DNA from: Alistipes sp.
Lineage (GTDB): Bacteria; Bacteroidota; Bacteroidia; Bacteroidales; Rikenellaceae
NCBI GenBank assembly: GCA_017558115.1
Contig: JAFYWG010000034.1
Location: forward strand, 1-43,593
DNA: 43,593 nucleotides
Reading direction: 5' to 3'
Part shown: positions 1-37,057 of the stretch, one piece after another
Numbering within the stretch: position 1 is the stretch's first letter
Layout of the letters: every line of letters starts with the position of its first letter
Position numbers and translations under genes: made by a program
The notes under the pieces: generated by a model
The model's database searches: none
What the model saw: the letters and a program-made list of their open reading frames with translations, nothing else
What the model was told of the DNA's origin: nothing

Positions 1-771
1 ACCGATGTATACAAGTTCTGCTATTCGGCAATTGACCTCACAACACTCTCATGTACCGACTCCGTGGAGTCTGTGCAGGCTTTTGTGCGCAAGGCGGTAG
101 ACTTCTACGAGAAGTATCCCCATATCCCTAACGTGGCATCTATCTGCGTCTACCCCTCATTCGTTGAGACTGTGGGCCTCGAGATTGACGGCACACCCAT
201 GCGAATAACAAGCGTAGCAGGTGCCTTCCCCGCATCGCAGAGCTTCGTAGAGGTAAAGGCCCTCGAGGTGGCTATGGCCATCGAGAATGGTGCAGACGAG
301 ATCGATATCGTCCTCAACCCCGGTATGATGCTCTCGGGCCATGAGGCAGAGGCTGCAAGCGAGGTGGAGCTGCTCCGCGAAGAGGCAGCAGATGTTGTCC
401 TCAAGGTCATCATCGAGTCGGGCGCGCTCAAGACCCCCGAACTTATCCGTCGTGCATCGCTCATCTCTATGTTTGCGGGTGCGGACTTCATCAAGACCTC
501 TACAGGTAAGATAGACGTAGCAGCAACGCCCGAGGCGGCATTTGTGATGTGTCACGCCATCAAGGACTACTACAACCTCACTGGCCGCAAGGTGGGCTTC
601 AAGGCTGCAGGTGGCGTTAAGACCCCCGAGGATGCAGCGCTCTACTACACCATCGTTGAGGAGATTCTCGGTGAGGAGTGGCTCACAACCGACCTCTTCC
701 GCATTGGTGCATCGTCAGCAGCAAATAATCTGATTTCAGCGATTGAGGATAAAGATATCAAATACTTTTAA
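1..771 (+). CDS. deoC: Deoxyribose-phosphate aldolase, 5' end cut by window
   Basis: Cytosolic class I aldolase that splits 2-deoxyribose 5-phosphate into acetaldehyde and glyceraldehyde 3-phosphate in deoxynucleoside breakdown. The frame is open from base 1 (reading TDVYKFCYSAIDLT), so the start lies upstream and 256 residues are visible. A GTG at 64 is internal and not the start. Family motifs seen are FIKTSTGK, which carries the Schiff-base lysine, and GFKAAGGVKT, which carries the second active-site lysine, plus the early IDLT segment typical of the barrel's first strand. The C-terminus ends naturally in IKYF. Its TAA stop (769-771) overlaps the left end of an inverted-repeat element (770-900). 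Identification is secure; the upstream context is not visible. Confidence 0.95.
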   Translation, partial: TDVYKFCYSAIDLTTLSCTDSVESVQAFVRKAVDFYEKYPHIPNVASICVYPSFVETVGLEIDGTPMRITSVAGAFPASQSFVEVKALEVAMAIENGADEIDIVLNPGMMLSGHEAEAASEVELLREEAADVVLKVIIESGALKTPELIRRASLISMFAGADFIKTSTGKIDVAATPEAAFVMCHAIKDYYNLTGRKVGFKAAGGVKTPEDAALYYTIVEEILGEEWLTTDLFRIGASSAANNLISAIEDKDIKYF

Positions 772-900
772 TTTGTTGTGATAAGCCGCAATCTGCGGCA
801 CATCCCTAAAAGTAAACCTCCCAAGGCTGTACCTCAAAGTACTATCCTTGGGAGGTCTCTTTTGTGATGCACCACATCTCACGACTTCTGACAACAAATT
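770..900 (+). repeat. Inverted-repeat element copy 1, abutting deoC stop
   Basis: A 131-base element bounded by perfect 10-base inverted ends, AATTTGTTGT (770-779) and ACAACAAATT (891-900); the similarity extends imperfectly inward for about 30 bases. Inside are a small hairpin, GCCGCA/TGCGGC (785-799), and an 11-base-pair stem, ACCTCCCAAGG/CCTTGGGAGGT (816-856), followed by CTCTTTT. The second stem looks like a rho-independent terminator for deoC. The stem's loop contains GTAC-6 bases-GTAC. The element starts inside the deoC stop codon. Other copies lie at 30649, 32942 and 36914. No transposase is nearby. Confidence 0.8.
816..863 (+). terminator. Terminator-like hairpin inside element copy 1
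   Basis: Perfect 11-base-pair stem (816-826 with 846-856), 19-base loop, then a pyrimidine/T-rich tail CTCTTTT. It lies 45 bases after the deoC stop, so it is well placed to end deoC transcription. Confidence 0.65.
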
Positions 901-919
901 GGTGTTGTCGCTTGGCGTT

Positions 920-1010
920 GTCATTCTGAACGCAGTGAAGAATCTCTCGGTGTGTGTTGACGTTCGACTGCTGTGCTATCACGAAGATCCTTCGCTTCGC
1001 TCAGGATGAC
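920..1010. repeat. Imperfect palindromic intergenic repeat
   Basis: The arm at 920-945 (GTCATTCTGAACGCAG then tgaagaatct) is the near reverse complement of the arm at 985-1010 (agatccttcgc then ttcgctcaggatgac), with about 39 bases between. Related arms of the form 'gtcatt..gag' and 'aatctc' occur at 25301-25415. This looks like a dispersed intergenic hairpin repeat. No coding sense was found. The surrounding 901-1160 stretch also holds a 9-base tandem array but no gene. Confidence 0.6.
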
Positions 1011-1056
1011 ATTCTGTGAGTGGGGGCTAAAGCTCAGCGCTCGACCGATCCAAATC

Positions 1057-1088
1057 ACCCTACAGACCCTACAGACCCCACAGAACCC
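1057..1088. repeat. Short 9-base tandem array (CCCTACAGA)
   Basis: About three and a half copies of a 9-base unit CCCTACAGA, the later copies degenerate, between the 920-1010 palindrome and the ribosomal-protein terminator. It has the same period as the arrays at 25252, 30713, 33092 and 37088 but a different unit sequence. No gene is visible here. Confidence 0.55.
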
Positions 1089-1169
1089 AGCCATCGACAA
1101 CGCCACTACTAATTACTCACTACTAATTATATTAACCCTTCTACGTTGCCCCCCCCCTCTAAAAACACC

Positions 1170-1193
1170 AAAGGCGGCTCGAAAGCCGCCTTT
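1170..1193 (-). terminator. Rho-independent terminator after the rpmB-rpmG-DUF4295 cluster
   Basis: Stem AAAGGCGGCT/AGCCGCCTTT with a four-base CGAA loop. On the minus strand it follows the last gene of the ribosomal cluster by about 30 bases. The symmetric A/T flanks mean it could also stop rightward transcription. Confidence 0.75.
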
Positions 1194-1225
1194 AGTATTA
1201 GTTCCCGAGGGAAGCTAATCCAAAA

Positions 1226-1384
1226 TTATTTCTGTGCGAAGAATGCCTTAATCTCCTCATCCTCCAAGATGTTCTGTGTCTGGAAAACGTAAGCACCAGT
1301 CTTCTCTGACTTAACCATCTTGATGCACTTTGTGTACTTCTTTGCGTTACCCGTTTTGAGGGTTGCAACTACTTTCTTTGCCAT
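1226..1384 (-). CDS. DUF4295 small basic protein (52 aa)
   Basis: A 52-residue lysine-rich protein beginning MAKKVVATLKTG and ending AFFAQK. Small proteins of this size and start are known in Bacteroidetes as DUF4295 and sit directly downstream of rpmG. That genomic position and its basic character suggest a ribosome-associated role, but no function is established and this is inference. It lies 20 bases after rpmG, the last gene of the cluster before the hairpin at 1170-1193. The ATG at 1384 is the only sensible start. Confidence 0.85.
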   Translation of the reverse strand: MAKKVVATLKTGNAKKYTKCIKMVKSEKTGAYVFQTQNILEDEEIKAFFAQK

Positions 1385-1404
1385 ACTTTACTGCTTAGTT
1401 AAAA

Positions 1405-1587
1405 TTACTTAATCTCACGGTGTAAAGTTACTCGCTTCAAGTAAGGATTGTACTTCTTACGCTCCAAACGGTCGGGAGTATTCTTCTTGTTCTTAGTGGT
1501 GATGTAGCGTGACATGCCTGCAACGCCGCTCTCCTTCTGCTCGGTGCACTCAAGGATCACCTGCACTCTGTTACCTTTCTTTGCCAT
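1405..1587 (-). CDS. rpmG: 50S ribosomal protein L33
   Basis: A 60-residue large-subunit protein. The order [14 protein letters not shown], then YITTKNKKN and the ending [11 protein letters not shown], matches L33. It has a single cysteine and lacks the two CxxC pairs, so it is the zinc-independent (C-minus) form. L28 upstream is likewise C-minus, so this ribosomal pair would not need zinc. It lies 16 bases after rpmB in the usual Bacteroidetes order rpmB-rpmG-DUF4295. Confidence 0.96.
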
Positions 1588-1603
1588 TTTCTGTTACCTT
1601 TTT

Positions 1604-1837
1604 TTAGTAAACCTTCTTTGCGGCCTTTGCCTCACGGAGTGCTACTGCAAGACCCTTCTTGTTAATTGTTTTGATGCCGGCTGCTGAAACCTTCAAAGTG
1701 ATCCAACGGCCCTCCTCCTCTGACCAAAAACGCTTTGTTCTCAAGTTTGGAGAGAACTTACGCTTGGTGCGGATGTGCGAGTGAGAAACGTTGTTACCCA
1801 CCATCGCTACCTTACCAGTGATTTCACAAACTTTCAT
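1604..1837 (-). CDS. rpmB: 50S ribosomal protein L28
   Basis: A 77-residue L28. MKVCEITGK, the segment [14 protein letters not shown] and the ending in AAKKVY are family-typical. It is the first gene of a three-gene cluster (rpmB, rpmG, DUF4295). A good Bacteroidetes promoter lies 46-75 bases upstream at 1883-1912. No CxxC zinc motifs are present, which is consistent with the C-minus form. Confidence 0.96.
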
Positions 1838-1882
1838 TGTACTTTATTTTTACCTTTCATGCCACCGTGGCACAAAAGCGCA

Positions 1883-1912
1883 CAAAGATACGCAAAATAT
1901 TTTATTCTGCAA
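1883..1912 (-). promoter_or_regulatory. Promoter of rpmB
   Basis: On the minus strand, TTG at the -33 position, a 19-base spacer and TATCTTTG at -7 (plus-strand complement 1883-1890) match the Bacteroidetes consensus. The leader to the ATG is about 45 bases. Confidence 0.75.
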
Positions 1913-1953
1913 GCATTTGCCCCATCCTTTTGATTTTTTATGGCAATAAAAGT

Positions 1954-1985
1954 GGGGGTAGTGAGCATTTTAGCCCGCTACCCCC
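1954..1985 (-). terminator. Hairpin, probable terminator of the pyrD-like/cinA/pncB operon
   Basis: Eight-base inverted repeat GGGGGTAG/CTACCCCC with a 16-base spacer. On the minus strand it is followed by ACTTTTATT. It lies downstream of the pncB region and upstream of the rpmB promoter. Confidence 0.5.
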
Positions 1986-2010
1986 GCATATATTATACTC
2001 ATTGTGGCCG

Positions 2011-2173
2011 TTACAGCATCACAGTAAGCACATATGCCTTGTCGCCAAGGCTTATCTCAATGCGATATGTTCCAGGCGCCCTAAATGGTCTCTACGCTAT
2101 CCACCTTTATATTGTCTCGCGCACATGCTGCCGCCATCGTTGCTACGAGTAGGTAAAGCAATACTCGTAGCAT
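2011..2173 (-). pseudogene. Frameshifted remnant of a small lipoprotein
   Basis: A minus-strand ATG at 2173, five bases after the pncB stop, starts MLRVLLYLLVATMAAACARDN, which has a lipoprotein signal with lipobox AAAC. The frame reaches TAG after 30 codons (2081-2083). In the next frame the sequence continues sensibly as APGTYRIEISLGDKAY and ends VLTVML at a TAA (2011-2013). This looks like one short lipoprotein of about 50 residues broken by a single-base indel. It could instead be a real 30-residue lipopeptide, or chance. A perfect 10-base inverted repeat (2142-2171) overlaps the start region. Confidence 0.35.
2142..2171. repeat. Perfect 10-base inverted repeat after pncB
   Basis: GCTACGAGTA (2142-2151) and TACTCGTAGC (2162-2171) with a 10-base loop, 7 bases from the pncB stop. 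On the minus strand no T-run follows, so it is a weak terminator at best; it may stabilise the 3' end of the pncB message. Confidence 0.55.
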
Positions 2174-2177
2174 ATAT

Positions 2178-3359
2178 TTATTGCTCGTTTTGTTTGTTTC
2201 CCTGGTTACGCAACAGGTAGCGATATACTGCAACCTCCTGGGGATCGCCCATCTCCTTGCCCTCCACGTCAGAGAGCTTCACACACAACTCCTTGGGCTT
2301 GCGTGAGTTAATTTGGCATGATGAGAGCTTCATGACGATGTTGCACGATGCGTGACCTGTGTCGCACGTGAGGTTTGTGCCGATGCCGAACATACACTTG
2401 ATGCGGCCCTCGCACGCCTTCTTAATCTGCACGCACTTCTCGAAGTTGAGCGAGTCGCTAAAGACTATAGACTTGGTCATGGGGTCGATGCCGAGCTCCT
2501 TGTAGCGGTTGATAGCCATGTCGATAAAGAGGATGGGGTCGCCCGAGTCGTGGCGCACACCGTCGAAGAGGCAGGCGTGCTTCTTCGAGAAGTTGTTGAA
2601 GAATACCTCCGAGCCGAAACTATCCGTGAGGGCTGTGCCGAGGTAGCCGTCGTAGACCTTAACCCAGTCCTCCATGGTGAGGTAGTTGGCATTACGTGGT
2701 CCACCATTCACCGCAGCAATGAACATGGGTAACTCGTGGGGGTATGTGCCTATCATCTTCATGTCTAACTCCATGGCGAGGTGACAGTTAGATGTGCCAG
2801 TGCAGCCACATGGGTTGTTCTTAAGGTGCTTAACTACCATGCGCTGAACGTCGTACGAGAAGCGGCGGCGTGTGCCGAAGTCCGAGAAGATAATATTGTT
2901 GTCGCGCGCTATCTGCTCCTTCTTTTCGAGGCGCTCGATCATAGCCTCAGCGTCGTAGCTGTTGCGTAGGTGGAAGAGCTCCGATACGGTGGCGAGGATG
3001 GGTATCTCGTAGAGCGTTACCTTATACATGTAGTCCGTAACGTTGATCTGAAGGTGGCGCTCCTCGTCGAGCCACACGTTAATCTTAGAAAAGTCGAAGT
3101 GGAAGCCCTTGAGCCACTCGAAGTAGTTCTGAGGGATATACTTGCAGTTGTGAATCATATACTGGAACTCATCCTCCGAGAGTGCTATGCGCTCCAAGGC
3201 CTTAAGTTCCGCCTTGAGGTCCTCGAGGAAATCATCGTCAAACTGCGTCTTTGCGCGGTCGTTGAAGGTGAACGTGCCTATCGCCTGTGGGTATAGCTTG
3301 AAGTAGGCGTAGGATGTAGTAAACTTGTAAAGGTCTGTGTCTAAGATTGAACGTATCAT
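2178..3359 (-). CDS. pncB: Nicotinate phosphoribosyltransferase
   Basis: A 393-residue enzyme that joins nicotinate with PRPP to give nicotinate mononucleotide in NAD salvage, in the cytosol. Family signatures are the N-terminal LDTDLYKFT, the central GTYPHELPMF with the histidine region that is phosphorylated in this family, FSDSLNFEK, and GIGTNLT near the phosphate site. Length is normal. It lies 19 bases downstream of cinA. CinA carries the PncC-type amidohydrolase domain, which makes nicotinate mononucleotide from nicotinamide mononucleotide. The pair therefore looks like a small NAD-recycling unit, which is an inference from adjacency. Confidence 0.95.
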   Translation of the reverse strand: MIRSILDTDLYKFTTSYAYFKLYPQAIGTFTFNDRAKTQFDDDFLEDLKAELKALERIALSEDEFQYMIHNCKYIPQNYFEWLKGFHFDFSKINVWLDEERHLQINVTDYMYKVTLYEIPILATVSELFHLRNSYDAEAMIERLEKKEQIARDNNIIFSDFGTRRRFSYDVQRMVVKHLKNNPCGCTGTSNCHLAMELDMKMIGTYPHELPMFIAAVNGGPRNANYLTMEDWVKVYDGYLGTALTDSFGSEVFFNNFSKKHACLFDGVRHDSGDPILFIDMAINRYKELGIDPMTKSIVFSDSLNFEKCVQIKKACEGRIKCMFGIGTNLTCDTGHASCNIVMKLSSCQINSRKPKELCVKLSDVEGKEMGDPQEVAVYRYLLRNQGNKQNEQ

Positions 3360-3378
3360 AGTTGTAGTTTTTTGTTTC

Positions 3379-4629
3379 TTAGTGTGTTAGGTTCTTGAGT
3401 TCGTTGTATAGCATCTCGATGGCATATGCCGAGGCGCGGCTGATGATCTGTCCGCGGTCGGTGCCGCAGTTGCGCAACGCAGCGATGGTCTTGGTGGGTG
3501 TCGCTACGGCCATCCATACTGTGTCCACGGGCTTTGCCTCGCTGCCACCGCCTGGGCCTGCAATACCCGTAGTGGCTATGGCATAGTCGGCATGCGCAGC
3601 TTTGCGCACTCCCTCGGCCATCTCGCGTGCCACCTGCTCGCTCACGGCGCCGTAGGCCTCGAGGCTCTCGTTGCTAACGTATATGATGTCGTGCTTTGCG
3701 GCGTTCGAGTAGCTCACCACGCCCGCCATGAAGTATGCCGAGGCGCCCGCCATGGCTGTGAACTTCGAGGCTATAGTGCCTCCCGTGCAGCTCTCGGCAA
3801 CGGCAAGGGTCTCGCCACGCGCTGTGAGTATGTCGTGTATCTGTGCCTCGACGGTGCTACCTTCATAGCCCACGATGTTGTCGCCGATGATGGTGTGTAG
3901 GGTGTCGAACTGCGCTCGAATCTCCGCCTCGGCAGCCTCACCCTCGACGTCGTATGCCGAGAGGCGTAGGCGCACCACGTTAGGTGCGGGAAGGTAGGCG
4001 AGGTGTAGGTGCTTGGGTAGTGCATCCTCCCATGCAGATATGCGCTCCGCGAGGATAGACTCGGGGATGCCGCGTGTGATGAGTGTGCGGTGTACGATAG
4101 CCTTAAGCTCGAAGCGCGCCTTCAGGCGTGGTACAACCTCGTCATCCATAAGGTGCTCCATCTCGAAGGGTACGCCAGGGAGTGAAACAACGACGCCACC
4201 ACGAGGTGTGTCGAACCACATGCCTGGTGCTGTGCCGTGGGCATTGTGTAGCACGGTGCAGCATGCGGGGAGCATCGCCTGACCGCGATTTAGGTCGGTG
4301 AAGGCTATGCCACGTCGCTCAAGTAGCCTGCGCACGTGCTCGCCCTCAGCCTCGTTGTATACAAGTTCGGAGTTGAAGATGCTCGCGAGGGTATGCTTGG
4401 TGATGTCATCCTTCGTGGGGCCGAGGCCGCCAGTGATGATGGTTATGTCACACTCCTCGATAGCACGCTCCACAGCCTCTGTGATAGCCTCGCGCGTGTC
4501 TCCTATTGAGAGCTTCGTGGCTATGGTGATGCCCGCAGCGTTGAGCTTGCGCGAGATAGAGGCGCTGTTTGTATCTACTATCTGGCCGATAAGTATCTCG
4601 TCGCCTATAGTTATTATCGTTGCTTTCAT
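3379..4629 (-). CDS. cinA: CinA: nicotinamide-nucleotide amidohydrolase family protein
   Basis: A 416-residue two-domain protein. The N-terminal molybdopterin-binding-like (COG1058) domain covers about residues 1-170 with IGDEILIGQIVDTN and GGLGPTKDD. The C-terminal PncC-like deamidase covers about residues 255-410 with AVAESCTGG and TGIAGPGGG. The C-terminal domain hydrolyses nicotinamide mononucleotide to nicotinate mononucleotide. The N-terminal domain in relatives has ADP-ribose pyrophosphatase activity. Its ATG overlaps the PyrD-like stop by four bases (ATGA), showing translational coupling, and pncB follows. The old name 'competence/damage-inducible' reflects other organisms; nothing here points to competence. 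Confidence 0.93.
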   Translation of the reverse strand: MKATIITIGDEILIGQIVDTNSASISRKLNAAGITIATKLSIGDTREAITEAVERAIEECDITIITGGLGPTKDDITKHTLASIFNSELVYNEAEGEHVRRLLERRGIAFTDLNRGQAMLPACCTVLHNAHGTAPGMWFDTPRGGVVVSLPGVPFEMEHLMDDEVVPRLKARFELKAIVHRTLITRGIPESILAERISAWEDALPKHLHLAYLPAPNVVRLRLSAYDVEGEAAEAEIRAQFDTLHTIIGDNIVGYEGSTVEAQIHDILTARGETLAVAESCTGGTIASKFTAMAGASAYFMAGVVSYSNAAKHDIIYVSNESLEAYGAVSEQVAREMAEGVRKAAHADYAIATTGIAGPGGGSEAKPVDTVWMAVATPTKTIAALRNCGTDRGQIISRASAYAIEMLYNELKNLTH

Positions 4630-5708
4630 TGCTCCGTAGTTGTCTCTGTATTAGGTGTTTCGGTGATCTCTGCGATCTCTTGTATCTCAGGTGTGTTGAG
4701 TAGTTTCGTTGTTGCCTTTAGTAGGCGCATGCCATTCTCGCGTAGGCCCGTGTTGAGTGCCACGAGCGATGCTCCAGCTTCGAGCATGCGCTTTATATCC
4801 TCGGGTTGCATCATGCCTCCCGAGCCGATGATGGGGTAGTTGTGCTCGGTCTTCTGGGCGATGTAGCGCACGGTCTCTATGGCCTTCTCGGTGAGCATAG
4901 CACCTGATACGGCACCTCCCGTTGTGCAACCCATCTCGCGAGCCATGGCGCTTGAGCCAGCCACGGCCTCTATGCCATCGAGGGGTGTTTCGATAAGGAT
5001 GTCGATGATGGCATCGAGCTCCTCGCGTGTGAGGTCGGGTGATACCTTGAGTAGTACGGGGCGGTAGTCGAGCTGACCGCGGCGGAACTCAAATAGTGGG
5101 TCTATAATTGCGCGTATCTCATCGGGTGTGCGAGGCTCGTAGGGCTTTGCCGATGTGGCACACGCAATGTTTATTACGAAGAAGTCGACATATTGATACA
5201 TGTTGCGGAATACGCGGAGGTACTCCTTGACTATATCCTCGGGGTGAGTAGATGTCATCTTCGATATGTTGCAGCCGATTACGAGGTGCTTGGTGTGCTT
5301 ACGGCGCTTGCGCACCTTACCTAAGGCGTGCTCCAATCCGAGGCTGGGGTATCCCGACCTGTCGAGGAGCGACTGCTTGCCCGATATACGCTTTAGGCGT
5401 GGGCGGGGTGTGCCAGGGTGGCGGCGCGACATAACCGAGCCTATCTCCACAAAACCGAAGCCCATTGCTCCGAGGTTTTGGAGGTTGTCGCCGTCGGGGT
5501 CGAAGCCTGCGGCTACGCCTATGGGGTTGCGGAATGTTAGGCCGAGCACCTGGGGGTGTGGCTCCTTGTTCTTGGGGGCATAGAGCATCTTCATCCACAT
5601 GCGACCCATGGGCATAGCGCCCGCAGCGCGCATCAGGCGCATGCGAAGGTTGTGTGCAACCTCTGCGGGTAGCACCGATAGTATATGCTGAAATAGTGAG
5701 ACTCTCAT
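4626..5708 (-). CDS. pyrD: PyrD-like dihydroorotate dehydrogenase with altered orotate site
   Basis: A flavoprotein with the fold and length (360 aa) of class 2 (quinone) dihydroorotate dehydrogenase: N-terminal helices, then NPIGVAAGF, GFGFVEIGSV, LKVSPDL with the FMN lysine, and IIGSGGM. However, positions that contact orotate in the E. coli enzyme differ. The LDKDG lysine is proline (FDPDGD), GFNN is GYPS, NISSPNT is NIACATS, and ATNTT is AVAGSS. The catalytic-base position is a cysteine. It may therefore act on another substrate, or be a strongly drifted PyrD. The start chosen is the ATG at 5708. The longer frame begins with a TTG at 5741 that lies inside the promoter -7 box. It is the first gene of the operon with cinA and pncB. 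Confidence 0.75.
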   Translation of the reverse strand: MRVSLFQHILSVLPAEVAHNLRMRLMRAAGAMPMGRMWMKMLYAPKNKEPHPQVLGLTFRNPIGVAAGFDPDGDNLQNLGAMGFGFVEIGSVMSRRHPGTPRPRLKRISGKQSLLDRSGYPSLGLEHALGKVRKRRKHTKHLVIGCNISKMTSTHPEDIVKEYLRVFRNMYQYVDFFVINIACATSAKPYEPRTPDEIRAIIDPLFEFRRGQLDYRPVLLKVSPDLTREELDAIIDILIETPLDGIEAVAGSSAMAREMGCTTGGAVSGAMLTEKAIETVRYIAQKTEHNYPIIGSGGMMQPEDIKRMLEAGASLVALNTGLRENGMRLLKATTKLLNTPEIQEIAEITETPNTETTTEQ

Positions 5709-5729
5709 TGTCGTAACTATATAATTATA

Positions 5730-5737
5730 CAAAGGTA
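5730..5737 (-). promoter_or_regulatory. Promoter -7 box of the PyrD-like operon
   Basis: On the minus strand, TACCTTTG lies 21 bases before the ATG at 5708. No clear TTG at 19 bases spacing was found, so the -33 side is weak. It overlaps codons of the longer open frame, which excludes a start at 5741. Confidence 0.6.
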
Positions 5738-5820
5738 GCAAAAAAAATTAGTAATGAGTAATTTGTAGTGGGTAATTTTGGGTTTGGAGGGTGTTTTTGC
5801 ATTAGTTAAGTGGCCAAAAT

Positions 5821-5868
5821 GTTCAAAAGGGTTCCAAAGAGTGATTTACCCTTTAGAACCCTTTGAAC
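5821..5868 (-). terminator. Inverted repeat, likely terminator of the 5913-8315 gene
   Basis: GTTCAAAAGGGTTC (5821-5834) pairs with GAACCCTTTGAAC (5856-5868), with one bulge and a 21-base spacer. It lies 45 bases downstream of the minus-strand barrel gene and is followed on that strand by ATTTTGG. Confidence 0.55.
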
Positions 5869-5912
5869 TTTTACGAACCTTTTATTCGTTGTTCAATGAA
5901 TATTACTCATTA

Positions 5913-8315: not shown

Positions 8316-8336
8316 GGTTTGTTATGGTTTACGATA

Positions 8337-8365: not shown

Positions 8366-8455
8366 AATTTTTGCTAACTTTTTTAAGGTGCGGGGTGTTT
8401 TTTTTTCTATATAACGTCCTTAAAGCAGTGTTTGTAACATCTCTTTAGCTGTTTT

Positions 8456-8485: not shown

Positions 8486-8530
8486 CTCTATAATTTAAGG
8501 ACAAACGATTAATTTTATAAAACAAACACT

Positions 8531-25240: not shown

Positions 25241-25300
25241 TTTATAGCGTGTTTAGGGAGTTTAGGGAGTTTAAGGAGTTTAGGGAGCGCATACCCGCTC

Positions 25301-25435: not shown

Positions 25436-25530
25436 AAAACTACGACGAACGGACGAACGGACAAAACGACAAATACGAACACGCTTCCCAAATGCAGTTC
25501 GCTCCCTCGTCTGCTTGTCTGCTTGTCTGC
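25436..25530 (+). repeat. 94-base interspersed repeat, copy A
   Basis: Essentially identical to the reverse complement of 37163-37256. It starts AAAACTACGACGAACGGAC and ends in copies of the 8-base unit TGTCTGCT. It contains two GAACGGAC units. Open frames across it are by-products. Confidence 0.85.
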
Positions 25531-25602
25531 CCTAAATTCCCTAAATTCCCTAAATTCTCATTAGTGTGATAGCGCTTACGAAAACTTTTCTCGTTACAAA
25601 TT

Positions 25603-30112: not shown

Positions 30113-30125
30113 AATATAAAATACT

Positions 30126-30650
30126 ATGGCATTAATTAGAAGCGTACGTGGCTACGAGCCCGAGATTGGTAACGACACATGGTTGGCAGAGAACGCCGCA
30201 ATCATAGGTAACGTAAAGATTGGTGAGAACTGCTCTATTTGGTACAACGCCGTGCTTCGCGGCGATGTAAACGCCATCACCATCGGTAATCACTCAAACA
30301 TACAGGATGGCGTGGTGATCCACACCCTCTACGACGGCTCGCCAAAGCCTTCGCAGACACACATCGGCAACTACGTATCTGTAGGTCACAACGCCGTGAT
30401 TCATGGCGCTATCATCGAGGACGACTGCCTCATTGGCATGGGTGCAACAATCCTCGACAACGCCGTAGTCGGCACTGGTTGCATCGTGGCAGCTAACGCC
30501 CTCGTCCTCTCTAACCAGAAGCTCGAGCCCAACTCAGTATATGCTGGTGTGCCCGCAAAGAGGGTTAAGGATGTGACGCCCGAGCAGCGTGAGCAGATCA
30601 TCAAGCGCACGGCACGCGACTACCGTACATATGCCAGCTGGTACGAGTAA
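30126..30650 (+). CDS. Gamma-carbonic-anhydrase family protein
   Basis: A 174-residue left-handed beta-helix of hexapeptide repeats (IGNVKIGENCSIWYNAV, VNAITIGNHSNIQDGVVIH and onward). The metal-ligand histidines in VIHTLYDG and SVGHNAVIHG are kept. It belongs to the YrdA/PaaY/CaiE-like gamma class, where carbonic anhydrase activity is proven for only some members. It lies 13 bases after mazG. Its TAA stop is the left edge of an inverted-repeat element. Confidence 0.88.
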   Translation: MALIRSVRGYEPEIGNDTWLAENAAIIGNVKIGENCSIWYNAVLRGDVNAITIGNHSNIQDGVVIHTLYDGSPKPSQTHIGNYVSVGHNAVIHGAIIEDDCLIGMGATILDNAVVGTGCIVAANALVLSNQKLEPNSVYAGVPAKRVKDVTPEQREQIIKRTARDYRTYASWYE

Positions 30651-30713
30651 TTTGTTGTGATAGTGGCGCTCCTTCGCCACCTCAATCATTGACGCCTTAC
30701 GTGTCTGAAAACT
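30649..30713 (+). repeat. Inverted-repeat element copy 3, shortened
   Basis: It begins AATTTGTTGTGATAG inside the stop codon of the upstream gene, has a hairpin GTGGCG/CGCCAC (30663-30680), and ends in a decayed right end (tctgaaaactt instead of tctgacaacaaatt). The central terminator-like stem found in the other copies is missing. A 9-base array starts directly after it. Confidence 0.65.
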
Positions 30714-30809
30714 TAGGGAATTTAGGGAATTTAGGGAATTTAGGGATTCTGCTCTCTAAATCCTTAATTTCCTTAACTTCCTTAAACTCCTTAAACTCCT
30801 TAAAACTCC
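30713..30809. repeat. Inverted pair of 9-base tandem arrays
   Basis: The left arm is four TTTAGGGAA units (30713-30748). After a 7-base spacer, the right arm has about six degenerate units of the inverse type (CTTAATTTC to CTTAAACTC, 30756-30809). Together they could fold as a long hairpin just upstream of the histidine kinase gene. Read through in one frame they give an artificial NLG/SLN-repeat extension of the kinase, which I reject. Confidence 0.75.
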
Positions 30810-30844
30810 CCCTATACTTAAACACTAATCATAAACTTTCGTTT

Positions 30845-32188
30845 ATGCGTCGCGTACGTCAACACTTCATCATACACATCTTGGTGGCAATAGTCCTTAG
30901 CCTTGTCATCAACTTCTCGTATCTGCTGATGCCCATAATCACCGAGAGTGGCATGGGAGAGCGCAAGATGAGCAACGCCCCCGTGGGTGAGCACAACTCT
31001 GGCGTGCTTCACCTCGAGCGCGACATGCACGGATACATCGTCTGCGACTGCGAGCAACGAGACAGCGTATACACCTCGGCATGGCAGGTATTAAACTTCA
31101 AGCTCAAGGAGGGTGATCACATAACATTCTCTGTGCGTGAGGCACGCGAGTATGAGACTGGAAATGAGGCTCTTGCACCACATCCACGCCTCGAGGAGGT
31201 ATACGAGATAAATGGTGAGCCCTTCGACTTCGACGCACTCTTCGACCGCCCCAGTCGCACCGTGGAGCTCGTATGGCAGATACTCTACTATGCGGTGCTC
31301 TCGTTCCTCATGATAGCGATACTCGCATATGGAGGTGGGGCACAGCGCAACCGCCGCTGGGTGGTGATACGTCGCATACTGCTACTTCTAACACTCGCCG
31401 CCGTGGCTATATCCTTCGCACCAGTGATGTCGTTCAACCATGGCGAGATGAAGCTTGACTTCTTCTTCCGCAGTGGCCCCCACGACAACGCATACATCAT
31501 AGTGCTCACGAAGTGCTTGTTTATGATTGTGGTAACAGCGCTATACTCACGCATTTACACCCTTATGCGTCACCAGCAGACAATAGTGGTGGAGAACGAG
31601 AGACTTAAAACCGAGAACCTATCGACGCGCTACAACATGTTGATGGGACAGATAAACCCGCACTTCTTCTTCAACTCCCTCAACTCGCTCGCCATGCTTG
31701 TGCGTGAGGGTGACCAGAAGCGCTCGTTGGAGTATGTCGACCAGCTATCCTACACCTTCCGCTACATCATACAGAATGGTAAGTCGAGTACAACGACGCT
31801 TAAGGAGGAACTTGAGTTTGCCGAGGCATATGCCTACCTCTTCAAGATACGCTATGCCGACAAGCTCTTCTTCAATTTCGACATTGACGAGAGGTATAAG
31901 GAGTGGGTGCTCCCTGCGCTATCGTTGCAGCCGCTAATTGGTAATGCGGTGAAGCACAATAGCATAACGACGAAGAACCCACTACATGTAGATATTCGCG
32001 TGGTGGATGGCGTGCTCGAGATTGAGAATGCCAAGCACCCGAAGCTCGATGTGGAGCCATCAACGGGCATAGGACTCGACAACCTACGCAGCCGCTGGCA
32101 GATAATTGCGGGTAAGGATATAGAGATAATAGACGAGGCGGAGCGCTTCATGGTGCGCCTACCGCTCGAAAACCCAGGTAAGAGATGA
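30845..32188 (+). CDS. LytS/YehU-type sensor histidine kinase
   Basis: 447 residues from the ATG at 30845 (MRRVRQHFIIHILV). The frame is open from 30689, but the first 52 codons are translated repeat array. A membrane segment at about 8-32 is followed by an extracytoplasmic domain to about 135, then three membrane segments (about 140-162, 172-193, 212-233) and a short coiled region. The His_kinase domain has NPHFFFNSLNSLAML (phospho-accepting His about residue 280). The ATPase has NAVKHNS and GIGLDNLRSR. It is coupled to the LytTR regulator by an ATGA overlap. The signal is unknown. Confidence 0.9.
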   Translation: MRRVRQHFIIHILVAIVLSLVINFSYLLMPIITESGMGERKMSNAPVGEHNSGVLHLERDMHGYIVCDCEQRDSVYTSAWQVLNFKLKEGDHITFSVREAREYETGNEALAPHPRLEEVYEINGEPFDFDALFDRPSRTVELVWQILYYAVLSFLMIAILAYGGGAQRNRRWVVIRRILLLLTLAAVAISFAPVMSFNHGEMKLDFFFRSGPHDNAYIIVLTKCLFMIVVTALYSRIYTLMRHQQTIVVENERLKTENLSTRYNMLMGQINPHFFFNSLNSLAMLVREGDQKRSLEYVDQLSYTFRYIIQNGKSSTTTLKEELEFAEAYAYLFKIRYADKLFFNFDIDERYKEWVLPALSLQPLIGNAVKHNSITTKNPLHVDIRVVDGVLEIENAKHPKLDVEPSTGIGLDNLRSRWQIIAGKDIEIIDEAERFMVRLPLENPGKR

Positions 32189-32943
32189 TAAATAGGGTAG
32201 TCATAGTGGAGGATGAGACCGCTGCAGCGGTAAACCTCCGTAGCATGCTCAAAAGCATAAACCCCAATGTCGAGGTGCTCGACGTATTGGAGTCGGTGGA
32301 GGAGGCCGTGGAGTTCTTCTCGAAGGGCGTGGAGGCAGATGTCGTATTTATGGATATACACCTTGCCGATGGCGACTCCTTCCGTATCTTCCAGAGTGTG
32401 GACATCACCGTACCCATCATTTTCACCACCGCCTACGACGAGTATGCCCTGCAGGCATTCAAGGTAAATAGCATCGACTACCTCCTTAAGCCCTACAAAG
32501 AGGAGGACCTAAAGCGTGCCCTCGAGAAGCTACAGCGCCTAACGGCTACCGAGCGTGCCACAGCCACCGAGCGCGTGGAGGCAATGGCGACAACGGCCGA
32601 AACAGATGCGCTACGCACCATCCTCGTTCGCTTCAAGGATAAGCTCATACCCATCTCGATGGAGGATGTGGCATACTTCTACACCTTCTCGGAGCGCGTG
32701 ACGCTGACGACACTCGTTGGCGCAACATACACCATTGACAAGACTCTTGAGACGTTGACAAACATGCTCGATGCTGGAAAGTTCTTCCGTGCCAACCGCC
32801 AGTTTATCGTGTCGCGTAAGGCTGTTAAGGATATCGCCGTGTGGTTTGGCTCGCGTCTGGCACTCAATCTTGTGATAGAGCCCCCCGAGCGCATAATAAT
32901 ATCGAAGGCACGTGTACCCGAATTCAAGCGCTGGCTCCAGTAA
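32185..32943 (+). CDS. LytTR-family response regulator
   Basis: 252 residues. The receiver domain (about 1-120) has the acidic pocket VEDE, the phospho-accepting Asp in VFMDIHLADG (about residue 55), and the lysine in LLKPY. A 30-residue Ala/Thr-rich linker leads to a LytTR DNA-binding domain (about 150-250: RFKDKLIPISMEDVAYFYTF, then RANRQFIVSRKAV). It is the partner of the upstream kinase. The small secreted protein and barrel gene downstream are plausible targets, by position only. Its stop codon is the left edge of element copy 2. Confidence 0.93.
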   Translation: MINRVVIVEDETAAAVNLRSMLKSINPNVEVLDVLESVEEAVEFFSKGVEADVVFMDIHLADGDSFRIFQSVDITVPIIFTTAYDEYALQAFKVNSIDYLLKPYKEEDLKRALEKLQRLTATERATATERVEAMATTAETDALRTILVRFKDKLIPISMEDVAYFYTFSERVTLTTLVGATYTIDKTLETLTNMLDAGKFFRANRQFIVSRKAVKDIAVWFGSRLALNLVIEPPERIIISKARVPEFKRWLQ

Positions 32944-33068
32944 TTTGTTGTGATAGCGGCGCATCTGTGACGCTTCAATCAAAACCACCAATGGGACGTA
33001 CGTCAAGTACTACCCATCGGTGGTTTTTTCATGTCAGCGCCACATCTACACCACTCTGACAACAAATT
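32942..33068 (+). repeat. Inverted-repeat element copy 2
   Basis: 127 bases with perfect ends AATTTGTTGT (32942-32951) and ACAACAAATT (33059-33068). It starts inside the LytTR-gene stop codon. The centre has a stem AAAACCACCAATGGG/CCCATCGGTGGTTTT (one mismatch, 32981-33027), then more T. The inner core is GTAC-5 bases-GTAC. The stem sequence is unrelated to that of copies 1 and 4, but the position, pairing and inner GTAC core are shared. Confidence 0.8.
32981..33029 (+). terminator. Terminator-like hairpin inside element copy 2
   Basis: A 15-base-pair stem with one mismatch and a T6 tail, about 37 bases after the LytTR stop. It is a strong candidate for ending the two-component operon. Confidence 0.75.
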
Positions 33069-33091
33069 GGGGGGGTGTTAAGTGTTTAATG

Positions 33092-33191
33092 AGTTTAGGG
33101 AGTTTAGGGAGTTTAGGGAGTTTAAGGAGTTTAAGGAGTTTAAGGAGATTTCAGTACAACACTAAATTCCCTAAATTCCCTAAACTCCCTA
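33092..33191. repeat. Second inverted pair of 9-base arrays
   Basis: Three AGTTTAGGG then three AGTTTAAGG units (33092-33145). After 16 bases come three inverse units (ctaaattcc, ctaaattcc, ctaaactcc; 33162-33191). It follows element copy 2 after a short G-rich spacer. The rest of 33192-33400 has no clear gene; a doubtful 38-aa frame is listed separately. Confidence 0.75.
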
Positions 33192-33203
33192 TATTCTTTA
33201 ATC

Positions 33204-33320
33204 TTACCTCTCTTCTTTAGGCGTAAATGCCCATAGCTCCCACGTCACTTCACCACCGTGTTCCTGCCACTTCAGCCCGCAATAAGGGCGGTTGGCCGAG
33301 GGCGTAGCTCTAAATCGCAT
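33204..33320 (-). CDS. Doubtful 38-aa open frame
   Basis: A minus-strand ATG at 33320 to a TAA at 33204-33206 encodes 38 residues starting MRFRATPSANRPYCG and including EVTWELWAF, with three tryptophans. No ribosome site or promoter is evident, and it sits between a repeat array and a plus-strand promoter-like box. It may be the tail of a lost gene or chance. Confidence 0.2.
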   Translation of the reverse strand: MRFRATPSANRPYCGLKWQEHGGEVTWELWAFTPKEER

Positions 33321-33330
33321 CTTCGTAGCG

Positions 33331-33338
33331 TAACTTTG
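33331..33338 (+). promoter_or_regulatory. Possible -7 box of the 33404 gene
   Basis: TAACTTTG, 65 bases before the ATG. There is no TTG at the expected distance, so it may depend on an activator such as the nearby LytTR regulator; that is inference. Confidence 0.4.
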
Positions 33339-33403
33339 CAATAGGAAAACAGAGAAATCCTACGAAACTAAACAGAGTTATAAACCCTTTAAAACCAACA
33401 ACT

Positions 33404-33793
33404 ATGAAGAAGATGATGTTCTTAGGCCTTGTGCTATCAGTTGTATCACTCGGCTCTGCTATGGCAAACGACGCTAACCTCTCACTCGAGCGCAAGCCAA
33501 AGAGTCCAAAGAAGGTTGTAATAAATGTGAATATGCCCCCAGTGGGTGGTGGTGCGGAGCACTTCAATCCTGGCGGTTGTCCTCCTCCCCCTCCAAAGGA
33601 GTGTGATTGCAAGGTCGTAGTAAAGCACCAGAAGAGGGGTCACAACCACAGCAAATTTAATAAGCCACGCCCACCAAAGAAGCACCACTGCCGAGGTGAG
33701 CACCGAGCCGATGGCGCACCTATTGGCGCACCCGTAGGCTCTCCTGGTGGCCCAGGTGAGGTTCCCAATGGCGCTCCTGGTGGCAGAAAATAG
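33404..33793 (+). CDS. Small secreted Pro/Gly/His-rich protein
   Basis: 129 residues with a signal peptide ending SAMAN (about residue 22). The mature part is strongly basic, with CPPPPPKECDC, then HQKRGHNHSKF and PKKHHCRGEH, and a Gly/Pro tail APIGAPVGSPGGPG. Three cysteines and several histidines could bind metal, but no known motif is matched. I do not recognise a family. It lies between the LytTR operon and a large barrel whose own tail and loops are Gly/Met/Pro-rich. A terminator follows, so it is probably its own transcript. Confidence 0.7.
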   Translation: MKKMMFLGLVLSVVSLGSAMANDANLSLERKPKSPKKVVINVNMPPVGGGAEHFNPGGCPPPPPKECDCKVVVKHQKRGHNHSKFNKPRPPKKHHCRGEHRADGAPIGAPVGSPGGPGEVPNGAPGGRK

Positions 33794-33806
33794 TAACATA
33801 ATGCAT

Positions 33807-33835
33807 GGGTGTTGGGCGACTGACACCCTTTTTTT
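33807..33835 (+). terminator. Terminator after the small secreted protein
   Basis: GGGTGT/ACACCC stem with a 10-base loop and a run of seven T, 14 bases after the stop. Confidence 0.8.
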
Positions 33836-33933
33836 GCCGTTTCACCCTCCTGTAATACATTTATTAAATAAATTGTATTAAATTCGTGGCGTAATATTGT
33901 GCAATAACTGAAAAAACAAAAACATTATACAAC

Positions 33934-36915
33934 ATGAAGAGATTAATTACATTTGTTGCCTTTGTGCTCTTGGCTATTCCCGCCATGGCGCAGTCGGGTA
34001 AGGTGACAGCGCGCATCGTGGATGGCGATACCAAAGAGGGTATTATTGGTGCTATCATGGAGGTGCGCAAGGAGGGTAGCCAGGCGGCTGGTCGCCACTC
34101 AGTATCGGGTGCCGAGGGTAAGGTTACTGTATCGGGCCTCGCAGCGGGTGACTACACCGTGACCATTTCGTTCATCGGTTACGCAACGCAGACACAGAGC
34201 GTGAAACTCGAACCAAATGCCGACCTCGGCGTGGTGGAGCTTATGCCCGAGGCTGTGGCTATCGACGCCGTAGTCAAGGAGGTGCAGGCGCTACGTACAT
34301 CGCAGAATGGCGACACCGTGGCATACAACGCTGCGGCATTTAAGGTCTCGGCAGATGCCGACGTGGAGGGCCTCTTGAAGAAGATGCCTGGTATCACCAT
34401 CTCTAATGGTCAGGTAGAGGCTCAGGGTGAGCAGGTTAAGAAGATCTTCGTAGACGGCAAGGAGTTCTTTGGTGAGGATGTATCAACAGCCCTCAACTCA
34501 CTCCCCGCACAGGCGGTAGACCGCATCGAGGTGTTCAACAAGCTCTCGGATAATGCCGAGTTCTCGGGTATGGATGATGGTGAGGGCTTCAAGGCCATCA
34601 ACATCGTTACGCACTCGAATATGCGTCAGGGTGTCTTTGGTAAGGTATATGGTGGCTACGGCTATCAGCCCGATATTGATGGTGGTAGCCCAGAGCCAAA
34701 CTTCAATAACGCTGATGGCTTCGACTCGGAGGTTAGCAGCGTGACATCGCACCACAAGTTCAACCTCGGTGGTAATGTCAACATCTTCCAGGGCTCGAGC
34801 CGTATCTCGGTTATCGGTCTGTTCAACAACGTCAACCAGCAGAACTTCTCATTCGAGGATATCCTCGGCGTCACCGGTGGCGGTAGCGGTCATGGTGGCG
34901 GTATGGGCGGCGGCATGGGCATGGGTCGTGGCGTAGGCCAGTACATGGTGCGCCCCCAGAGTGGTGTTGCTCGCGTAGGCTCTATAGGTGTTCAGTACTC
35001 TGACGCGTGGGGTGAGGGCGACAAGGTTAAGCTCAACGGCTCATACTTCTTCAACGACACCAAGACACGCGATAAGAACTACCTCCAGCGTTGGTACGAG
35101 ACACCATCACCCGATGACTACCTCGAGCAGGAGGGTGAATCGGAGTCGCACAACTACAATCACCGTCTCAACGTGCGCCTCGACTGGACCATCAGCAAGA
35201 ACATGTCGTTGATGTCGCGTACGAACTTCAGCTTCCAGGGTAACGACCCCTACAGCAAGCAGTATGGTGAGCTTACGGGCGAGTCGGCAACAGAGAAGGG
35301 TCTTCCCTATGAGATGATTCTCAACGGCACAGATGCCTCATCATACTCACGCGGCTTGCGCTTTAGCGAGTTCTTGCAGTACCGCGTGAAGCTCGGTAAG
35401 GATGGTCGTACCATCACCGTGGATGGTCGCTTCTCTATGCGTAACACGCCTAAGTCGGTGACTAATAGCTTCTCTACGCTCTCTACAACCTTCGATGAAC
35501 TTACAGGTGTCACATCGCCCGTAATCCGCTACGTTTCGGCTCTCGCACCTCAGAACGAGACCGACATCAGTGCAAATGTGACATACACAGAGCCCGTGGC
35601 TAAGCATGCGCAGGTGAGCATGCAGTATCGCTTCGACATGGAGAATCAGGACATCAACAAATCTGCCTATATCACTGGTGCAGACTTCAACTTTGAGGGT
35701 CTCACTCCCGATGCTTCGCTCTCGTCATACACCGATAGCCGCAGCACGGAGCACCGCGTAGGTCCAGGCTTCCGCTGGGCGAAGAACCGCAATACCTTCA
35801 TTGCGAATGTCTACTACCAGCACTCTACGCTCGATGGCTTGGTTAAGGGCGAGAACATCAAGCGCGACTACGACCATGTGACATACTTCATGATGGGTAA
35901 CATTGCGTTCAACCCCCAGAACTCTATCCGTGTATTCATCAACTCGTACACGCATAATCCCGATGTGCGCAACTTGCAGGATATCTTCGACGTGTCTAAC
36001 GCGCAGTATATCTCTAAGGGTAATCCCAACCTTAAGTCGTCGTACAACCACCGCGTGAACTTCCACTACATCCGCTCGAACATAGAGAAGGGTCGCACCT
36101 TCATGTGGATGTTCTCGGGTAACATCACCCAGGACTACATCGGTCAGAGCATCTACTACAACAAGCCCGTGACCATTGATGGCGAGGAGTACAACCCCTT
36201 GCAGTACTCTACATACGAGAATATGAATGGCTCGAGCTCATTGCGTACGCACCTCAGCTATGGCTTCCCCATCGCGCCTATCAAGTGTAACTTGAACCTT
36301 ATGGTGGGCTACAGCTGGACACGTACACCCTCGAAGATCAACGACCAGCTCAACATAACTAACAACATGGGCTACGACGCTATGATCTCGCTCGGTAGTA
36401 ACATCTCGGAGAACATCGACTTCACAATCCAGTGGAACGGTGCCTATAACGATGCTAAGCAGTCGCTCGCGGGTAAGAACAGCAAGAACCAGTACTTCAA
36501 CCACACTGCATCGGGTACGTTGAAGTGGGTATTCTGGAAAGGCTTCACCATCACCGCAGCGGTTAACTACAACCAGTATATCGGCTTTACAAACAACTAT
36601 AACGAGGACTACCTCATCTGCAACCTCTACCTCGGTAAGAAGCTCTTCAAGAACCAGCAGGGCGAGATTCTCATCGGTGTGAACGACCTTCTTAACGAGA
36701 ATGCGGCCTTCGCGCGCACCGTGGGTAGCGGTTACACCCAGAACGCATGGAACAGCGTTGTAGGTCGCTACTTCACCGTGCAGTTCAACTACAACCTCCG
36801 TTTCTTCGGTAAGAAGGGTTCAAAGAATGCCGAGGACTACGGTATGGATGTTAAGCCCGGTATGGGCATGCCTGGAGGCTTCCCAGGTGGACGTCCTCCT
36901 ATGATGCCCAGATAA
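33934..36915 (+). CDS. Outer-membrane beta-barrel protein, Gly/Met-rich loops
   Basis: 993 residues. The signal peptide ends AMAQ (about 20). A carboxypeptidase-regulatory-like domain (about 22-105: RIVDGDTKEGIIGAIMEV, FIGYATQTQS) is followed by a plug-like region (about 125-225: LLKKMPGITI, KKIFVDGKEFFGEDV, DRIEVFNKLSDNAEF) and then a barrel. A loop near 308-330 is GGGSGHGGGMGGGMGMG, and the C-terminus is GMGMPGGFPGGRPPMMPR. Barrels of this kind with Gly/Pro-rich tails are common in Bacteroidetes; the substrate is unknown. The Met/His/Gly loops hint at metal contact, but weakly. The stop codon is the left edge of element copy 4. No SusD gene follows. Confidence 0.83.
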   Translation: MKRLITFVAFVLLAIPAMAQSGKVTARIVDGDTKEGIIGAIMEVRKEGSQAAGRHSVSGAEGKVTVSGLAAGDYTVTISFIGYATQTQSVKLEPNADLGVVELMPEAVAIDAVVKEVQALRTSQNGDTVAYNAAAFKVSADADVEGLLKKMPGITISNGQVEAQGEQVKKIFVDGKEFFGEDVSTALNSLPAQAVDRIEVFNKLSDNAEFSGMDDGEGFKAINIVTHSNMRQGVFGKVYGGYGYQPDIDGGSPEPNFNNADGFDSEVSSVTSHHKFNLGGNVNIFQGSSRISVIGLFNNVNQQNFSFEDILGVTGGGSGHGGGMGGGMGMGRGVGQYMVRPQSGVARVGSIGVQYSDAWGEGDKVKLNGSYFFNDTKTRDKNYLQRWYETPSPDDYLEQEGESESHNYNHRLNVRLDWTISKNMSLMSRTNFSFQGNDPYSKQYGELTGESATEKGLPYEMILNGTDASSYSRGLRFSEFLQYRVKLGKDGRTITVDGRFSMRNTPKSVTNSFSTLSTTFDELTGVTSPVIRYVSALAPQNETDISANVTYTEPVAKHAQVSMQYRFDMENQDINKSAYITGADFNFEGLTPDASLSSYTDSRSTEHRVGPGFRWAKNRNTFIANVYYQHSTLDGLVKGENIKRDYDHVTYFMMGNIAFNPQNSIRVFINSYTHNPDVRNLQDIFDVSNAQYISKGNPNLKSSYNHRVNFHYIRSNIEKGRTFMWMFSGNITQDYIGQSIYYNKPVTIDGEEYNPLQYSTYENMNGSSSLRTHLSYGFPIAPIKCNLNLMVGYSWTRTPSKINDQLNITNNMGYDAMISLGSNISENIDFTIQWNGAYNDAKQSLAGKNSKNQYFNHTASGTLKWVFWKGFTITAAVNYNQYIGFTNNYNEDYLICNLYLGKKLFKNQQGEILIGVNDLLNENAAFARTVGSGYTQNAWNSVVGRYFTVQFNYNLRFFGKKGSKNAEDYGMDVKPGMGMPGGFPGGRPPMMPR

Positions 36916-37057
36916 TTCCTTGTGATAATTTCTTGTGATAAGCCGCAATCTGCGGCACATCCCTAAAAGCAGACCTCCCAAGGCTGTACTATTATGTACT
37001 ATCCTTGGGAGGTCTCTTTTGTGATGCACCACATCTTACGGCTTCTGACAACAAATT
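36914..37057 (+). repeat. Inverted-repeat element copy 4, duplicated left end
   Basis: 144 bases ending ACAACAAATT (37048-37057). The left end is a 13-base tandem duplication, AATTCCTTGTGAT then AATTTCTTGTGAT, starting inside the barrel-gene stop codon. From AAGCCGCAATCTGCGGC onward it is nearly identical to copy 1, with a 12-base-pair terminator stem (36972-36983 with 37003-37014) and a GTAC-6-GTAC core. The small changes lie mostly in the loop. Confidence 0.8.
36972..37020 (+). terminator. Terminator-like hairpin inside element copy 4
   Basis: GACCTCCCAAGG/CCTTGGGAGGTC, 12 perfect pairs, then TCTTTT. It would end transcription of the 993-aa barrel gene. Confidence 0.7.

Follow-up and report, generated by a model that had tools for sequence, protein, structure and literature searches.

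Why should a repeated hairpin begin, at gene after gene, inside the stop codon of the gene that precedes it? The question is raised by a 43,593-nt stretch of an Alistipes genome (here called the window, meaning the whole stretch of DNA analysed), in which an earlier note described an inverted-repeat element that always begins within a TAA. The copies placed at 770–900, at 32942–33068 and, in decayed form, at 30649–30713 are borne out, and the full part of a fourth occupies 36927–37057. Copy 1 (131 nt, reading AATTTGTTGT-GATA at its left end and TCTG-ACAACAAATT at its right) starts within the TAA (769–771) of deoC, a gene at 64–771 that Pfam PF01791 and its orthologues identify as encoding a DeoC/LacD-family aldolase. 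Copy 2, of which only the left arm and first stem survive, starts within the TAA (30648–30650) of a gene for a hexapeptide-repeat (LbH) protein (30126–30650; PF00132), and the same stop is abutted by copies in relatives' loci L316, L317 (weakly), L319 and L320. Copy 3 is full, measures 127 nt, has the top model score of the four (139.9 bits) and starts within the TAA (32941–32943) of a LytTR response regulator gene (32185–32943; PF04397 and PF00072). Copy 4 (131 nt) combines a C-type left arm with a G-type right arm, leaving one mismatched pair, and follows a gene for an outer-membrane beta-barrel protein (33934–36915; PF14905). Sequence comparison reveals a 13-nt duplicate of the left arm, a footprint, at 36914–36926, between the stop codon (36913–36915) and this copy; the TAA overlaps the duplicate, and the full copy begins 14 nt past the first base of the stop. 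All of these features lie on the forward strand, each copy being oriented as its upstream gene, and all four left ends (for copy 4, that of its duplicate) overlap the TAA of a different gene, as had been claimed. Pfam supports the names proposed for deoC, the LytTR regulator and the barrel, and gives a hexapeptide-repeat protein for the gene that the note called gamma-CA. The full copies fold much more stably than shuffled sequences (z-scores of −5.0 to −7.4), and decayed copy 2 no better than these (−0.2).

The four copies belong to a family of hairpin repeats of about 127 nt. The left-end 14-mer, with up to two mismatches, occurs 85 times in the 1.88-Mb genome from which the window comes (the own genome), against 15 times for the reversed pattern. 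A covariance model built from 23 copies (35 pairs, 20 of them compensated) gives 125 matches there, which include both strands of the near-palindrome and collapse to 80 places that do not overlap, with a few poor matches among them. Within the genus the model matches 27 of 41 genomes and none of the other 14, three of which are 98–99% complete; the genomes are mostly MAGs, many of them 80–90% complete. A matching genome holds from one to at least 80 matches, a number in which the two strands of one copy can each be counted. When named genomes were scanned with a pattern, at least 116 stretches were returned; the matches listed all carry the name Alistipes or Rikenellaceae, and the sample names are in most cases those of ruminants. 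Across the order, two further families match the model (3 of 295 genomes, the own included), and a scan with the pattern TTGTGATAA...TTCTGACAA matched 13 of 393 genomes, of which five were judged real by eye on the first 80 bases (the own, G248 and three of one genus) and eight, with single matches, were put down to chance. Judged from these sequences, two other families of the order harbour divergent relatives of the element. A comparison of 60 own copies shows identity above about 93% in one tandem pair only and hence no trace of very recent movement. Because a tail near GGGTCGTGGTGCTAAT is shared past the right arm by 36 of 222 copies at unrelated loci (e.g. L230, L355 and L271; control 0), the unit may extend beyond the hairpin. 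A variant with the same ends and another core (CTCATTTACG..GTAAACTCCG) is found at L351 (in genome G040) and at C61:9242-9377 of the own genome, and its core resembles that of the elements of G248. In own arrays on contigs C29, C17, C39 and C23, copies that have arms like AATTTNGCA and a changed first loop tend to stand next to the stop, with a left end of the main type directly behind them.

The position of the left end relative to stop codons can be tabulated for 234 deduplicated copies, using a simple open-frame search as ORF caller. A long-ORF stop lies within −33 to +9 nt of the left end in 176; the offset is −1 (the phase T|AA) in 111, −2 in 13, +9 in 13, −4 in eight, −3 in six, −7 in five, −5 in four and another value in 16, a table in which some decayed left ends are misplaced (C43_80069 stands at +9 and is elsewhere scored −1) and the weakest copies are poorly aligned. 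The remaining 58 comprise 20 second copies of tandem arrays, 12 copies at contig edges and 26 with no such stop. Most copies outside the −1 and +9 classes start 2–10 nt past the stop. The claim that the element always begins inside a TAA therefore holds for four of four copies in the window and gives way genome-wide to an exact phase in 111 of 234. Model R1, made from own-genome copies, includes four left flanking columns and leans slightly to T at −1, a bias avoided by a stop-blind pattern. With that pattern, the stop of an ORF of at least 80 codons falls at −1 in 33 of 73 relatives' copies, as against 25 of 1038 other AATTT words; the other offsets are −4 (nine), −2 (eight), −7 and +9 (three each) and others (five), with no stop in 12, and such a stop lies within −10 to +9 in 61 of the 73 (10 further copies, too close to an edge to judge, were left out). 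This is more than random landing would give, as the earlier note had supposed, and the spread of left ends with no excess at stop codons that would have told against it is absent. In the other families, GATA of the first copy follows the beginning of the stop of an ORF of at least 40 codons by 1–15 nt in 12 of 13 cases and by 29 nt in one, and further copies lie behind the first.

Two classes depart from the common phase. In the 13 copies at +9, the stop is the TGA of a conserved GTGATA, the left arm is itself coding sequence, and the left end carries no TAA. In several copies at −4 to −14, a remnant of an older left arm lies between stop and element. A 13-nt left-arm duplicate of the same kind as that before copy 4 occurs in another family of the order (locus L437). 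Remnants of 7–13 nt separate the stop codon from a full copy at window 36914–36926, near position 2952 of L437, and at L261, L460 and L466; in the two families of the order concerned they look as if older hairpins had been deleted. The stop codons at elements are TAA in 148 cases, TGA in 11 and TAG in eight, compared with 178, 23 and 86 in 400 kb of a relative. Several element-free orthologues end in TAG where the own genome has TAA and an element. From this the AA seems to come with the element, suggesting that it inserted behind the first T of the stop. A target preference of TAA/TTAA type, one of the explanations first offered, falls short, since AATTT words elsewhere are rarely at stops, element-free orthologues carry TAG and the +9 class has no left-end TAA.

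Comparison with element-free homologues indicates whether the stop was there before the element. At deoC, the C-terminal length in the window equals that of every element-free homologue compared. More generally, gene length is the same as in the closest element-free homologue in 34 of 44 cases; eight homologues are one codon longer, one is 12 longer and one is two shorter (three self-matches were dropped, and element-free and element-bearing homologues were told apart by a crude pattern). The LytTR gene of the window ends 4–5 codons before the genes of its closest relatives, which at 74–75% identity lie below the limit of the length test, and none of these relatives has an element at that place; here copy 3 seems to supply a new stop instead of sitting on the native one. 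With length unchanged in most genes and the LytTR gene as an exception, the element usually sits on a native stop but can create a new one. At a LytTR homologue in locus L180, another copy lies at nearly the same early place and is read as +9; in two species, therefore, a copy closes this gene (at 32938–32943 in the window) a few codons ahead of the stop in element-free relatives, and does so in two different frames.

Comparison between relatives also reveals gain, loss and change at individual stops. Of the 30 deoC loci closest to that of the window in 180 genomes, the own locus among them, the model finds a copy directly against the stop in 16 and no copy in 14. The best match is on the gene strand in all 16, the copies fall into many subtypes, and the closest relative (89% identity in gene DNA) carries a subtype different from that of the window; in relatives without the element, the same C-terminus is followed by unrelated hairpin terminators. 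The stop of the hexapeptide-repeat gene is occupied in four of 30 loci (one weakly, the own decayed copy being below threshold and uncounted) and that of the LytTR gene in one of 30. Sites of the kind for which the earlier note had proposed to look occur among relatives, as element-free orthologues of deoC and of the hexapeptide-repeat gene. Behind the latter, relatives without the element have the next gene at roughly 20–150 nt, measured by eye, so the element sits there between close neighbours. In 400 kb of genome G040, 16 genes are similar to own element-bearing genes, and three of them carry an element (one decayed). Conversely, of 111 first copies in relatives, 34 stand at a gene whose homologue in the own genome also bears an element; for random genes we estimate that an overlap of about 4% would be expected, assuming 1,600–1,700 genes. 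The likeness of the two copies stays within the 95th percentile (0.84) of 597 random pairs in 34 of 41 full orthologous pairs and exceeds it in seven. From this overlap of homologues, together with dissimilar copies at the same stops, it appears that the same stop codons tend to be occupied repeatedly, through new insertions or by overwriting. A second deoC fragment, with 98% protein and 89% DNA identity, lies at a contig end (G000:C7:1-521).

The ends of the element pair with each other. With wobbles counted, pairing is 0.88–0.96 at positions 1–9, 0.73 at position 10, 0.52 at position 11 and 0.36–0.49 from position 12 onward. Where the left base differs from the usual one, the right base changes with it in 93 of 107 cases at position 5 (against an expected 38.5), in 22 of 39 at position 9 (2.1) and in 13 of 46 at position 10 (4.5); at position 11 there is no excess (18 of 68, against 20.2). 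The same covariation is seen where coding sequence forms the left arm, and in the four copies at −1 with TAG, each of which has C in its right arm.

Folding also distinguishes the two strands. In computed folds, the strand antisense to the gene is the more stable in 190 of 195 copies with RNA parameters and in 189 of 195 with DNA parameters, in 34 of 37 (RNA) and 33 of 37 (DNA) cluster representatives, and in 18 of 18 sequences of the other families, several of which are near-identical; random 130-mers divide 104 to 91. A consensus of 44 diverse antisense sequences (from 50 cluster representatives, six of unusual length having been dropped by eye) has 38 pairs, of which 30 are compensated, and 92.7% of its cells pair, compared with 73.1% when shuffled and 40–48% when slid. 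It consists of a base stem of about 10 bp, a 3×3 loop (CAG/ATC), a stem of about 9 bp, a 2×2 loop, a further stem of about 9 bp and an apical hairpin, variable but ending in a conserved GTAC..GTAC tip. Because this structure was derived from the antisense strand, the wobble counts taken stem by stem and the folding of both strands are the fairer tests of strand. G.T wobbles outnumber A.C in the antisense consensus by 172 to 31, and in the second stem the sense strand has A.C where the antisense has G.T in 118 instances against 24. The outer arm has no such asymmetry (35 against 33), and in the apical stem the wobbles are mixed by position, A.C being commoner in sum, mostly from one position. 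By these computed folds, the strand under structural selection is most probably the one antisense to the gene.

The reading that we prefer, at a probability of about 0.4, is that of a single-strand hairpin element, resembling attC and REP and anchored to stop codons, which would be moved by machinery supplied in trans. It starts from features established by comparison between genomes, namely the phasing, the strand-specific fold, presence and absence, change of subtype, head-to-tail arrays starting at the stop and mostly unchanged gene length. Non-coding repeats conserved in structure would repeatedly be placed at the stops of resident genes, mostly after the first base and in one orientation. 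The element would move as a folded single DNA strand, recognized more by structure than by sequence, and would be attC-like in architecture and REP-like in genomic behaviour; a recombinase would act on it, and new insertions would re-use occupied stop codons, or other copies would overwrite them. Through insertion the mRNA would acquire a 3′-end hairpin, the core of which often resembles a terminator. Against this reading, re-occupation is uneven (four of 30 at the hexapeptide-repeat gene, one of 30 at the LytTR gene), the LytTR stop differs from the native stop of relatives, the wobble asymmetry is absent from the outer arm and mixed in the apical stem, and the attC triplets occur in none of 222 copies. 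Nor was a mobilizing enzyme found, a target-site duplication seen or very recent movement detected. For RAYT proteins (Y1_Tnp, PF01797), a search of 33 genomes, some of them rich in the element, gave no match, against 5 positives among 14 controls, and no integron integrase (TIGR02249) scores above cut-off in 36 (incomplete) genomes; weaker matches to TIGR02249 occur in all 36 and in all 14 controls, and we take these to be Xer-like. In a single scan of the loci fetched, no convincing long element with cargo, or with the same ends as an autonomous relative would have, came to light. No clear target duplication was remarked in the earlier note, and no constant one is visible in the right flank; the flanks are too diverged for both junctions to be aligned to an empty site. 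No recombinase of single-stranded DNA with stop codons as its target is known to us, and the turnover could be ectopic gene conversion.

A quite possible alternative, although we would wager against it, is that the hairpin acts at the level of the mRNA, as a terminator or 3′-end structure selected at the ends of expressed genes. In a scheme like that put forward for ERIC RNA, the outer 10-bp stem might then be melted by the terminating ribosome; or it might slow the ribosome, as with REPs lying within 15 nt of a stop. Copies elsewhere would be lost and subtypes swapped in place by gene conversion. Orientation with the gene and phasing to the stop are both properties of the sense strand, and the upstream genes include those for Hsp70, EF-P, FBP aldolase, PEPCK, SecA and GMP synthase (six of 65 own genes, picked because they were recognized). 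A run of at least four T follows the apical hairpin on the gene strand in 114 of 195 copies (at least five in 45 of 195), and among 138 copies with a called neighbour the downstream ORF is convergent in 89 and codirectional in 49. Excerpts of two papers offer precedents. In enterobacterial ERIC, a conformational change induced by the ribosome is proposed to destabilize the upstream transcript (PMC2229807), and a share of the high-copy palindromic REP/BIME repeats of Escherichia coli lies within 15 nt of a stop codon and affects translation (PMC12306157). On the other side, the sense strand is the one that folds worse in 190 of 195 copies, with A.C where the antisense has G.T, T-runs are not universal, and a terminator needs no exact abutment to the stop. 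Some copies also lie between genes that are closely adjacent in relatives. A terminator scanner reports one of the four window copies (copy 3, at 33009–33024). The stop-coupled terminator suggested from the window thus keeps the support of the T-runs and is weakened by the copies between close neighbours and by the better conserved antisense fold.

More ambitious, and in our judgement unlikely, is a system distinct from integrons that would append attC-like recombination hairpins, folding from the bottom strand, to the stops of resident genes in several families of the order. If this were true, ordinary chromosomal genes would become cassette-like units, and the element would offer a first glimpse of how a gene gains an attC. 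On this reading, the inverted match of the right arm to the last bases of the gene or to its stop codon points to a templated joining, fold-back or cDNA-like in manner. An attC site lies behind its gene and in the orientation of that gene, as the element does. According to an excerpt of PMC2727003, attC is an imperfect, gene-associated hairpin of 57–142 nt whose bottom strand folds, usually with 9–11 complementary boundary nucleotides, an unpaired central spacer, a variable tip and poor sequence conservation. The element likewise folds, by computation, from its bottom (antisense) strand, with a boundary stem of about 10 bp, an unpaired spacer and a variable tip. It is unlike attC in that AAC/GTT stands at the inner R-box edges in none of 222 copies (TGT/ACA does in 171), and in that copies are scattered behind core genes with no cassette array. 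With regard to the one-sided extrahelical bases of attC, the loops of its consensus fold are symmetric, and a few single columns stay unpaired. An integron proper was rejected on the missing triplets and the lack of an integrase above cut-off, and gene cassettes proper were rejected because relatives have deoC and the hexapeptide-repeat gene without the element.

An ordinary MITE with fixed terminal repeats and a target of T/AATT type, restricted by selection to gene ends because the AA it brings creates or preserves a stop there, is disfavoured, and we rate its chances as low. It would account for the inverted ends, the copy number, presence and absence, the AATT shared in some tandem copies, and the LytTR gene, where the element seems to give a stop 4–5 codons early. 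The ends nevertheless covary and pair with coding sequence, both copies share a strand in nine of nine own tandem pairs although AATT is palindromic, AATTT words elsewhere go unused and gene length is mostly unchanged; neither a transposase nor a duplication was identified. A duplication of AATT or TA was rejected, the right flank showing none.

Transcription of the antisense strand, with the element acting as an antisense 3′-end RNA, is improbable. It fits the covarying, G-U-rich fold of that strand and the larger strand difference given by RNA than by DNA parameters. The Bacteroidetes −7 box, a motif taken from general knowledge, occurs inside 34 of 222 copies on the antisense strand against seven on the other. 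A promoter for a whole antisense RNA would lie in the right flank, and there the box is not enriched (5 of 215 at +10 to +90, against 3–10 of 201–214 farther out), nor is a two-box pattern (3 of 215 against 1–5 of 201–214), so a promoter in that flank was set aside; in addition, 49 of 138 neighbours are codirectional. A REPIN population mobilized by a RAYT can be dismissed almost entirely, for although the repeats are palindromic, numerous and diversified without near-identical copies, Y1_Tnp has no match in 33 genomes when 5 of 14 controls are positive, and the element measures 127 nt against the 20–40 bp given for REPs in an excerpt of PMC3733652.

Other candidates were tried and rejected. 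For a phage or plasmid origin, one copy gave no blastn match, and none of 58 viral contigs with the 16-mer fits the model. No Rfam family reaches its gathering threshold in the window, and at E≤1 the four copy loci give three weak matches of eukaryotic type only, far under gathering scores. Stop-codon readthrough was set aside on judgement by eye only. As for an autonomous long element, locus L200 has half-copies flanking an unrelated reverse gene.

How, then, does the element stand to known repeats? We know of no exact stop-codon anchoring for ERIC, nor of any element for which stop codons serve as insertion sites. It is set apart from REP/BIME by its length of about 127 nt, its overlap with or abutment to the stop, its better-folding antisense strand and the lack of a RAYT in 33 genomes. 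REPINs are described, in an excerpt of PMC8049555, as repeat populations that persist in genomes, and the element differs from them in having no RAYT gene among the same 33 genomes and in its stop-codon position. ERIC/RU-1 is, by an excerpt of PMC2759123, a 127-bp mobile repeat of enterobacteria; the element belongs to a different phylum, and the likeness is one of descriptions, not of sequence comparison. With an attC-like fold but no AAC/GTT, integrase or array, and REP-like behaviour but no RAYT, the element is filed in neither the attC/integron nor the REP family. The best-ranked titles and abstract openings in the open-licence PMC literature on Alistipes, on Bacteroidales or Bacteroidetes repeats, on structured RNAs and on MITE, ERIC or YPAL at stops (the best 15 of 225 for palindromic repeats in Bacteroidetes and the best 10 of 182 for the last topic) hold no description of this family; the earlier note's statement that none was known stands with the caveat that E. 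coli REPs within 15 nt of stop codons have been described (PMC12306157).

That, from species to species, the element stands at the stops of the same genes in differing versions, while keeping one orientation and a conserved fold specific to one strand, requires either an insertion mechanism linked to translation or transcription or strong selection for a hairpin exactly at the stop. The element points to a hitherto undescribed way of marking gene ends. Why palindromic repeats cluster at gene ends, and how cassettes of integron type get their recombination site, are open questions on which it bears. The window also contains tracts in which a 9-nt unit (TTTAGGGAG, with its complement) is repeated in tandem, at 25254–25296, 25521–25567, 30714–30808 and 33087–33206, the last two directly behind element copies 2 and 3, and a tract of an 8-nt unit (AGACAAGC) at 37108–37194, about 50 nt past copy 4.
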